From: Draconibacterium mangrovi
Lineage (GTDB): Bacteria > Bacteroidota > Bacteroidia > Bacteroidales > Prolixibacteraceae
Direction: 5' to 3'
DNA: 64,000 bases
Assembly (NCBI RefSeq): GCF_010586825.1
Contig: NZ_JAAAGB010000002.1
Location: 496,001 to 560,000, forward strand
Positions 49,267-51,508 of the stretch are shown piece by piece. The notes below the pieces were generated by a model. That model had not been told where the DNA came from and did no database searches. It saw nothing but the letters and a program-made list of their open reading frames with translations. The first letter of the stretch is position 1, and each line of letters begins with the position of its first letter. The position numbers and the translations under genes were made by a program.

Positions 49267-49358
49267 CAGACCGCCCGGAACGAATACTTCCCGGTTCGGT
49301 CTGCTGCTAGACTGGTGAACGCCGTCGATGCATCCCGGTGAGCTTTGTCGAATCGGGA
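49267..49358. repeat. structured intergenic element of unknown type
   Basis: The 190-bp gap after dinB carries three neighbouring hairpins. The first has a 7-bp stem CAGACCG/CGGTCTG (49267-49303) extended by CCGG/CCGG with small bulges. The second is GTCT-6-AGAC (49299-49312), which shares bases with the first. The third is TCCCG/CGGGA (49333-49358). It is GC-richer than its surroundings and has no T run, so it is not a simple terminator. A REP-like palindromic repeat or a small RNA are both possible. Confidence 0.4.
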
Positions 49359-49378
49359 GGACTTATAATCTTTTATAT

Positions 49379-50386
49379 ATGAAACGAATAAAACGCTTTT
49401 TACTGATAGTGATTCTTTTGGCGATAATTGGCTACCTTCTGGGGCCAAAACCTCCCAAACCTGAGTTGAATAAAGACCTGCCATCGCTATCGGCAAGTAT
49501 TTCAAACATCGAGACCTTTGTGCAACGAAAAGAAGCATCTTTTTCCATAAAACCCGATAACGAAAGCCGCATTATCTGGGCAAACGATTCGTTAAAAGAG
49601 CGCACTGATTATTGTGTGCTGTATCTGCACGGTTTCTCGGCATCGTGGTTCGAAGGGCACCCCGCACACGAGCGTTTTGCGCAGCATTTTGGCTACAACT
49701 TATACATTCCGCGTTTGCACGATCATGGATTGGTTACCGAAGATCCTTTAATTGATATGACTCCCGATGGATTATACGCTTCGGCAAAAGAAGCATTAAT
49801 GGTTGCCCGCAGTCTGGGGCGAAAAGTGATCATCATGAGCACGTCAACAGGAGGAACGCTGGGACTAAAACTGGCGGCAGATTTCCCGGAGTATGTTGAC
49901 GGACTGATCATGTATTCGCCTAATATCAAAGTGAAAAACGGCTCGATGGTTTTATTGTCAAAACCCTGGGGCCTGCAAATCGGGCGAAAGGTAATTGGTG
50001 GGAAGTACCGTGTTTCTGACGATGATCCGGAGTCGGAAGATTGTAAATACTGGAACTGTACATACCGTGTGGAGGCGCTGGTTTATTTGCAACAACTACT
50101 TGATGCCACTATGACAAAAGAAACGTTTGGCCGTGTAACAGTTCCTGTGTTTCTGGGATACTACTATAAAGACGGTGAGAATCAGGACCAAACAGTAAGT
50201 GTTGATGCAATGCTCGATATGTTTGATGAACTGGGAACTTTACCCAATCAGAAGGTGAAAAAAGCCTTTCCTGAAGCTGGTGATCACGTTATTGCGTGCG
50301 AACTGACATCGGGCAGTGTGGAAGAAGTAATTGCCGAAACCATTCGTTTTGGAGAGGGGTTTTTGGGATTAAGCCCAACCCGCTAG
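49379..50386 (+). CDS. alpha/beta-hydrolase with N-terminal membrane anchor
   Basis: From the ATG at 49379 the protein has 335 residues; the longer frame from 49328 adds 17 residues read through the structured gap and is unlikely. A hydrophobic N-terminal segment (FLLIVILLAIIGYLL) makes it secreted or membrane-anchored. The hydrolase core has YLHGFSASWFEGHP (oxyanion), nucleophile Ser in MSTSTGG (SxSxG in place of GxSxG), Asp in the YYYKDGENQDQ region and His in AGDHVIA. It is similar to carboxylesterase/lipase-like proteins; substrate unknown. The REP-like arm of the GIY-YIG cassette begins at its stop codon. Confidence 0.85.
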   Translation: MKRIKRFLLIVILLAIIGYLLGPKPPKPELNKDLPSLSASISNIETFVQRKEASFSIKPDNESRIIWANDSLKERTDYCVLYLHGFSASWFEGHPAHERFAQHFGYNLYIPRLHDHGLVTEDPLIDMTPDGLYASAKEALMVARSLGRKVIIMSTSTGGTLGLKLAADFPEYVDGLIMYSPNIKVKNGSMVLLSKPWGLQIGRKVIGGKYRVSDDDPESEDCKYWNCTYRVEALVYLQQLLDATMTKETFGRVTVPVFLGYYYKDGENQDQTVSVDAMLDMFDELGTLPNQKVKKAFPEAGDHVIACELTSGSVEEVIAETIRFGEGFLGLSPTR

Positions 50387-50764
50387 CTGTCATTTCGAAG
50401 GAGGAACGACTGAGAAATCTGAAACCTATGAAAGACCACAATTATTTCGTATACATTGTTACAAACAAAAATATAACGGTTTTATATATAGGCGTTACGA
50501 ATGATCTCCAAAGGCGGGTATTCGAACATGAAAATGGATTAATTCCCGGTTTCTCAAAAAAGTATAATTGTAATTACCTTGTTTTTTATGAGCATTTCCA
50601 AAATATTGAATATGCCATTGAGCGGGAGAAAGAAATAAAGAAATGGAGGAGAGAAAAGAAAAATAATTTGGTAAAAAACTTTAATCCGAGCTGGGAGTTT
50701 TTGAATCAAAAGATATATGGTTCATTGTAACAGATTTCTCCTCCTTCGTCGTCGAAATGACAGC
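50386..50764. mobile_element. GIY-YIG nuclease cassette with inverted REP-like arms
   Basis: A 379-bp unit. The left arm (50386-50420) starts GCTGTCATTTCGA and ends GAGAAATCT; the right arm (50732-50764) is its imperfect inverse, AGATTTCTC to CGAAATGACAGC. The outer 13 bp of the arms are perfect inverted repeats. Each arm can also fold on itself (ATTTC with GAAAT), as REP elements do. The only gene inside is a GIY-YIG endonuclease. The unit starts on the last base of the upstream stop codon and ends 13 bp before the pgl stop. Transposition or homing is inferred, not shown; no target-site duplication is obvious. Confidence 0.6.
50428..50730 (+). CDS. GIY-YIG nuclease family protein
   Basis: A 100-residue endonuclease of the YhbQ-like single-domain type. 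The start at 50428 is chosen because the longer frame would translate the terminal repeat. The family motifs are in order: YFVYIVTNKN (GIY-like), LYIGVTNDLQRRVFEHENG (YIG, catalytic Arg), then KKYNCNYLVFYEHF, and Glu in NIEYAIEREKEIKKWRREKK. The protein is basic at the end, WRREKKNNLVKNFNPSW, typical of such small nucleases. It lies between inverted REP-like arms. Confidence 0.9.
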   Translation: MKDHNYFVYIVTNKNITVLYIGVTNDLQRRVFEHENGLIPGFSKKYNCNYLVFYEHFQNIEYAIEREKEIKKWRREKKNNLVKNFNPSWEFLNQKIYGSL

Positions 50765-50776
50765 ATCAGGCATTTT

Positions 50777-51508
50777 TTATTGAATTTGAGCCGCTGCCTC
50801 TTCGTCTAAAAACCAGGTTAATGTACCGTTGGTTGGCGAAATGTAATAGGCCGGTAACAATTGGGCAGCATCGTTATCATTCATAATTTCTGCAACCCGC
50901 AATGCTTTATTCGATCCTGTTACCAGGAAAAATATCTGGTTGGCATTATTCAGCACATTTCCGGTAATGGTAATACGTTTTTGCCCGGAAAGCGGATGAA
51001 CGGCAACTGCGCAGCTTTGTTCGTCTTCAAAAAGTTCCAACTGATCGGGAAAAATTGAAGCCGTGTGTCCGTCGTCGCCAAGCCCCAGAATGATCAGGTC
51101 GAAAACCGGATCTTTACCACGTGAATTAAGGCTTTCCTCCATCTCTTGCGAGTAGCGCAGTGCTTCCTGTTCCGGATCTTCCTCGCCTTTAATACGGTGG
51201 ATATTTTTTTCGGGAATAGAAATATTTGAAAGCAGGTAATCAACCGTCATTTTGTAGTTGCTTTGCTCGTCGGTTGGAGGCACACAGCGCTCGTCGCCCC
51301 ACCACAAATGAATGCGTTCCCAAGGAATTCGGTCGGCGTATTTTTTACTTATCTTTTTAAAAAGTCCTTTTGGAGAATTTCCACCAGACAGTGCTATATC
51401 AAAGACTTCCTGATTCGAATTTTGTACCATCTTGATCATTGCTTTCGCGATGGCTTTGTAAACATCTTTCGGTTTCGAATAGATTTTTACTTCAGTAAAG
51501 GTTTCCAT
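50777..51508 (-). CDS. pgl: 6-phosphogluconolactonase
   Basis: A 243-residue cytoplasmic enzyme of the SOL/DevB type that hydrolyses 6-phosphogluconolactone in the oxidative pentose-phosphate pathway. Visible motifs: DIALSGGNSPKGLF (phosphate binding), IHLWWGDERCVPPTDEQSNY (quoted up to 20 residues) and LGLGDDGHTASIFPD. It follows zwf by 44 bp. A gnd gene for the next step is not adjacent. Confidence 0.95.
   Translation of the reverse strand: METFTEVKIYSKPKDVYKAIAKAMIKMVQNSNQEVFDIALSGGNSPKGLFKKISKKYADRIPWERIHLWWGDERCVPPTDEQSNYKMTVDYLLSNISIPEKNIHRIKGEEDPEQEALRYSQEMEESLNSRGKDPVFDLIILGLGDDGHTASIFPDQLELFEDEQSCAVAVHPLSGQKRITITGNVLNNANQIFFLVTGSNKALRVAEIMNDNDAAQLLPAYYISPTNGTLTWFLDEEAAAQIQ

Follow-up and report, generated by a model that had tools for sequence, protein, structure and literature searches.

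Why should a single small nuclease gene lie between two inverted, hairpin-like arms in the space between two convergent genes of Draconibacterium mangrovi? The question arises from the window, by which we mean the whole stretch of 64,000 nucleotides analysed here (G000:C20:496001-560000, G000 being the reference genome). A sequence-only reading of this DNA had answered that gene and arms may form a minimal mobile cassette. The 13-bp perfect inverted repeat that it described is present at 50386-50398 and 50752-50764 and encloses a lone 100-residue GIY-YIG gene, and the neighbours converge on the unit as they would around an insertion, the left one (which we take to be hydrolase-like) ending at 50386 on the plus strand and the right one (presumably pgl-like) lying on the minus strand. 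The same reading had the unit begin on the last base of a stop codon, which is true of the 13-bp repeat but not of the conserved element: because other copies share only TGTC...GACA, without the outer two bases of the repeat, the conserved element spans 50388-50762 and starts 2 nt past the stop codon. The arms are about 32 bp (left) and 30 bp (right) long, and the nuclease frame, opened by ATG at 50428, closes with TAA at 50728-50730, a single base away from the inner edge of the right arm.

Table 1. The cassette, its parts and its neighbours (positions in the window)
Feature	Position	Strand	Basis
Whole cassette, TGTC...GACA	50388..50762	.	G000-vs-G040 differences are fewer between 50380 and 50766
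Left arm, GTCATTTCGA...GAGAAATCT	50389..50420	+	Pattern match (G000:C20:546389-546420)
GIY-YIG nuclease gene, 100 aa, including stop codon	50428..50730	+	Pfam PF01541 E=3e-15; AlphaFold2 mean pLDDT 94.1
Right arm, inverted, GTCATTTCGA...GAGAAATCT on minus strand	50732..50761	-	Pattern match (G000:C20:546732-546761)
Left neighbour ORF, outside cassette	49328..50386	+	ORF list
Right neighbour ORF, outside cassette, marker for locus comparison	50777..51508	-	ORF list

An Rfam search of 50000-51200 gave no match, and neither did PADLOC. Of the features of insertion sequences and MITEs, inverted ends are present; the cassette carries no transposase, and an informal inspection by eye of the arm pairs in its own genome revealed no consistent target duplication.

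The window protein matches the Pfam GIY-YIG family, and 15 columns are invariant across 32 relatives, including Y9, Y20, G22, R30, H34, E67 and N86, residues that presumably have catalytic-type roles. The protein is a member of the GIY-YIG superfamily whose key residues appear intact, and it is predicted to cleave DNA. NCBIfam returned no match for it, and TIGR01453 (group I intron endonuclease) matches 20 of the 32 relatives, weakly, and not the window protein. When the AlphaFold2 model was submitted to Foldseek, the single match below 0.001 was the UPF0213 protein 1zg2 (6.5e-4), which is also matched by profile (6.4e-10). Slx1 chains, which are much longer and were solved with Slx4, follow at 0.025 and weaker, and UvrC domains are weak matches too. 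The genome encodes one nuclease of the cassette type at E<=1e-15, its four other GIY-YIG proteins being weak relatives, and phage records yielded one weak match, with an alphaproteobacterial relative.

The sequence-only reading named as support many copies of the arms, some with and some without the nuclease, and such copies were found. The arms have the architecture YGTCAT-stem-loop-stem-ATC, and the pattern GTCATTTCGA-N4-30-AGAAATCT occurs 31 times in the 5.9-Mb genome, the reversed pattern not once. By the exact pattern, two of these arms are the cassette's, 18 form nine bare head-to-head pairs and 11 are single, some of the latter with a decayed partner visible by eye; bare pairs are found in relatives as well. 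The accompanying claim, that each arm can pair with itself, had a mixed outcome. Four single arm strands, folded as DNA, were no more stable than shuffled sequences. Across 103 distinct arm loops, however, the two loop halves form 191 Watson-Crick pairs, whereas 1000 re-dealings of the halves give 116 on average and never more than 150; related arms are not independent in this count. With the same caveat, closed hairpins (58 versus 37.6 when re-dealt) and tandem G-A steps (36 versus 27.7), which stabilise DNA hairpins, both exceed the maximum of 1000 re-dealings. Because the loop halves match better than re-dealt halves, self-pairing is supported despite the null folding result.

Is the cassette a fixed part of the genomes that carry it? 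Three loci in the genus show both cassette-filled and empty states, and two of the three also a bare arm pair. The home locus was compared at 30 pgl loci, 26 of them with both neighbours in reach: the cassette is present in four (G000, G040, G060, G069), the left arm alone in three (G064, G065 and, decayed, G068) and neither cassette nor arm in 19. At locus B, flanked by what we take to be pflB-like and pflA-like genes, 27 loci include three with the cassette (G064, G065, G068) and three with a bare arm pair (G037, G047 and, partly decayed, G035); no T-type cassette was seen among the remaining 21. Locus C, flanked by ABC-permease-like genes and compared at 28 loci, six with one flank only, holds the cassette in G064, G037, G068, G070 and G057, a bare pair in G047, a different small ORF in 13 genomes, and nothing in G061, G062 and G041. 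The empty sites sought in relatives therefore exist at the home locus and at loci B and C, and neither outcome that would have refuted the sequence-only reading occurred: the arms are not confined to one place, and the cassette is not fixed. At the level of sequence, then, the unit is mobile. The 24 T-type loci fall into about eight groups by flank similarity, and G055 carries two nuclease copies on separate contigs, 92.6% identical, in different surroundings.

Two of these loci hold further arrangements. At locus B of G064 (L049), the cassette is flanked by extra arm pairs, and the nuclease has on its borders two similar arm-linker-arm stretches, which look like the products of a duplication at the time when the cassette landed next to an older pair. 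At locus C of the reference genome (L290 964-1418; G000:C11, between about 374408 and 374943), a small gene of the 23S_rRNA_IVP family (Pfam E=1.7e-42) lies between 21-nt inverted arms that are 86% complementary, and ORFs that resemble it by eye occupy the same slot in 12 other genomes. It may represent a second family of small genes enclosed by repeat arms.

Two of the four home-locus cassettes are far more alike than their surroundings. Between G000 and G040, dS is 0.038 for the nuclease and 0.53 for both neighbour genes. Only four differences fall in the 387 bases from 50380 to 50766 (at 50474, 50688, 50706 and 50720), and the next ones, at 50379 and 50767, lie 9 and 5 bases outside the element; the chance of so few is 4e-14, assuming a flank rate of 10.5% that was itself chosen on the basis of the flanks. 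In G060, whose cassette occupies the same locus, nuclease dS is 0.59, against 0.70 and 0.47 for the neighbours; this copy has an age similar to that of its surroundings, so the gene does not diverge slowly as a rule. The G000-G040 pattern could have arisen by conversion confined between the arms or by two recent insertions into the same site. The suggestion of homing in the sequence-only reading is only partly supported: the similarity is limited to the cassette, but classical homing is expected to co-convert flanks, and no co-converted flank was seen around the exchanged tract. Free-standing and intron-borne GIY-YIG homing endonucleases share with the present case the nuclease superfamily and the cassette-limited exchange at one allelic site, whereas the cassette has no intron and has dispersed hairpin arms.

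How far does the association of nuclease and arms extend? We assembled 179 loci of related nucleases, which span many phyla: 89 from the family (holding 90 of the 111 family-search places other than the window's own), 10 from plasmid records and 80 from named genomes, the best 80 of 581 confirmed candidates and many of them metagenome bins. L178 and L179 repeat L056 and L061 and are still counted. A detector of GTC-AT hairpins with a 250-bp reach found arms on both sides, on one side and on neither in 41, 30 and 18 of the family loci, 6, 1 and 3 of the plasmid loci, and 46, 26 and 8 of the best 80 of 581 named loci. When tag variants were allowed, the corresponding figures were 46/34/9, 5/3/2 and 46/25/9 (the last again for the best 80 of 581), or 97, 62 and 20 for all 179. 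By eye, many of the loci without a GTC arm have hairpins of other tags (CTC, CCTC), and others have nothing clear. Control genes gave both-sided, one-sided and absent arms in 0, 2 and 28 of 30 pgl loci (30 of 35 matched genomes), 0, 1 and 29 of 30 Y1-transposase loci (33 taken, three at contig edges dropped), and 1, 24 and 256 of 281 pseudo-genes more than 1 kb away. Within the reference genome, no arm pair accompanies the four other GIY-YIG genes (L010-L013) or four Y1 genes (L073-L076); beside L073 there is a one-sided chance arm at 300 bp.

The arms are also oriented. Among the best 80 of 581 named loci, inward GTC arms reach 6.48 per kb within 100 bp of the nuclease and outward ones 2.73 (102 versus 43 arms), and the inward density is 0.17 and 0.10 per kb at 1-1.5 and 1.5-2 kb. 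In the same 80 loci the reversed tag CTG is absent within 100 bp, and GTC is the top of all 64 tags near the nuclease, with 150 occurrences against 26 for the next. Both-sided examples come, by their record titles, from Deltaproteobacteria, Clostridia, Parcubacteria, Woesebacteria, Brocadiaceae, Omnitrophus, Elusimicrobium and Dehalococcoidia (many of them metagenome bins). In plasmid records of Sinorhizobium, Shinella and Azospirillum, the nuclease gene is surrounded by alphaproteobacterial repeats; on plasmid AZO_p3 of Azospirillum lipoferum 4B (L144), sufB and sufC enclose a GIY-YIG gene that has REP arms.

Some of the distant loci have notable surroundings. On Planktothrix agardhii plasmid p1 (L137), a GIY-YIG gene sits among repeats between an MmeI-type restriction enzyme and drmA of DISARM. 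At L067, L079, L085 and L130 the GIY-YIG frame stays open across the right arm and joins that of the following gene, presumably a 6-phosphogluconate dehydrogenase from its likeness, a possible fusion through the REP.

If nuclease and arms travel together, do their sequences correspond? Left and right stems agree in 62 of 92 loci, against a mean of 15.8 and a maximum of 31 in 2000 shuffles, and in 29 of 44 loci from the best 80 of 581 named ones (shuffled mean 6.8, maximum 15). Five loci (L081, L134, L209, L178 and L179) were omitted from the nuclease tree, which has 175 rows, 28 of them lacking an arm label. On this tree, stem type changes 47 times over 147 labelled loci, compared with a mean of 96 and a minimum of 87 in 500 shuffles that ignore kinship; for 76 distant loci there are 36 changes versus 51 (minimum 45). 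We then defined a T clade by at least 70% protein identity and a G clade by the motif K-x-G-[SN]-R in the protein, and counted arms per genome, the cassette's own included, with G-clade genomes taken from the examined loci only. Among 140 family genomes, with kinship ignored throughout, the 19 with a T-clade nuclease have a median of 31 T arms versus 0 in the others (p=7e-13), and G arms show no difference between these groups (p=0.39). The 22 with a G-clade nuclease have 17.5 G arms versus 1.5 (p=2e-8), here with no difference in T arms (p=0.72). In tests restricted to the genus, again ignoring kinship, p for T on T is 0.003 by rank and 0.015 by Fisher, and for G on G 0.015 and 0.25. As far as sequences can tell, nuclease clade and arm type stay matched across distant bacteria. 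There are exceptions: more than two T arms occur in 20 of 121 genomes without a T-clade nuclease, G035 has 98 T arms and no T-clade nuclease at E<=1e-15, and G038 and G014 have the nuclease and only two T arms. Loss after spread could explain the first of these genomes, and recent arrival the other two.

A match of this kind would also be expected if the nuclease served its host, perhaps after domestication, by processing REP hairpins (as DNA cruciforms or RNA) for clean-up or regulation while the arms spread by other means. The enzyme is usually found in one copy per clade and genome and is under purifying selection (dN/dS 0.08-0.45 where computable, by YN00), as would suit such a role. The gene is nevertheless enclosed by the arms, and at a given locus some genomes have it and others lack it; in G038 and G014, with no further T arms, a clean-up enzyme would have little to do. 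We regard a host function as unlikely.

Could the arms instead be moved in trans by a RAYT-type or other transposase, with the nuclease as a passenger? Y1 transposases are present in 35 of 37 genus genomes, and the architecture resembles that of REPINs with RAYTs (REPtrons), which, as described in PMC3733652, likewise combine inverted REP arms around one small nuclease gene with many bare REP pairs. In that system the tag is GTAG and the enzyme an HUH/Y1 tyrosine transposase, whereas here the tag is YGTC and the enzyme GIY-YIG, so that the cassette does not belong to the REPIN/RAYT group. GTC-type arms flank none of the 30 Y1 loci on both sides and one on a single side, in keeping with the departure from the tyrosine-transposase model that had been proposed, and the number of Y1 copies shows no significant correlation with T arms (Spearman 0.21, p=0.21). 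A passenger, moreover, would not explain why stem type follows nuclease clade across distant bacteria, and Di Nocera et al. (2013, PMC3733652) likewise found no Y1 gene flanked by CGTC repeats. Transposition in trans is accordingly a poor candidate, less probable still than a host role. In G036, 14 Y1-transposase matches, several with equal scores, suggest a recent spread of that family. It is very improbable that the arms are common intergenic repeats or terminators of the sort found next to small genes in general, with coinciding hot spots accounting for the pairing: the arms are intergenic, and some intergenic sites do gather several kinds of repeat, but the same-genome pgl and Y1 controls, the inward excess in the best 80 of 581 named loci, and the stem agreement and tree matching all speak against it.

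To which known repeats do the arms belong? They fit the CGTC/TGTC REP superfamily, which includes dRS3 of Neisseria and RPE-6/RPE-4 of Rickettsia; Di Nocera et al. (PMC3733652) reported CGTC-type REPs in five phyla without a dedicated transposase and left their dispersal open, and the term GIY-YIG does not appear in their paper. Those repeats and the cassette arms have in common the tag (CGTC/TGTC/CCTC), a complementary AT at the start of the stem, and head-to-head dimers: GTC is the top tag here, preceded by T or C in 274 of 297 arms, and the reference genome supplies the nine bare pairs and the cassette's two arms. The differences are that the cassette arms enclose a nuclease gene and that T-type stems are longer and interrupted (a 5-bp outer stem and an interrupted inner stem, compared with a stem of 8-9 bp and a loop of 4-5 nt). 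The tail, near CCA in the superfamily, begins here with C in 282 of 297 arms, followed by T (214) or C (70). In Neisseria gonorrhoeae, a GIY-YIG gene lies inside a dRS3-type array (dRS3 as identified from PMC3733652). Among the open-access papers listed by our searches, none reported a link between this nuclease and REPs. A REP-plus-nuclease arrangement is known; the present one has an unrelated enzyme and another REP superfamily.

The arm copies, bare pairs and empty sites together support the mobile-cassette interpretation, and we think it probable that the cassette belongs to the CGTC/TGTC-tagged REP superfamily as a mobile unit, its two hairpin arms enclosing a GIY-YIG nuclease that cuts the arms for copying by repair. 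We infer that the nuclease would recognise its own arm type when extruded or single-stranded, and would cut next to the GTC tag, at the base of the hairpin. Repair of the break by the host would then copy arm pairs or whole cassettes to new or allelic sites, which would make the nuclease the cause of the spread, and bare pairs would travel as non-autonomous passengers, the part that REPINs play for RAYTs. Counted against this explanation are the arms of G035, the cassettes of G038 and G014, the 20 armless loci of 179, the missing target duplication and flank co-conversion, and the null folding result for single arms.

These results suggest that this GIY-YIG family supplies the partner that had been missing for a large group of bacterial REPs. 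The odds are about even that a bacteria-wide class of mobile elements exists in which a lone GIY-YIG nuclease some 100 residues long needs no transposase, integrase or intron to disperse cassettes with hairpin arms, relying on its own cuts and on repair by the host, and that this class is the source of the whole CGTC/TGTC superfamily, dRS3 included. A specific small nuclease tied to CGTC-type REPs makes the question of their dispersal directly testable. It would also be a second, unrelated enzyme family linked to bacterial REPs, and it suggests what many small genes whose sole annotation is "GIY-YIG nuclease family protein" might do.
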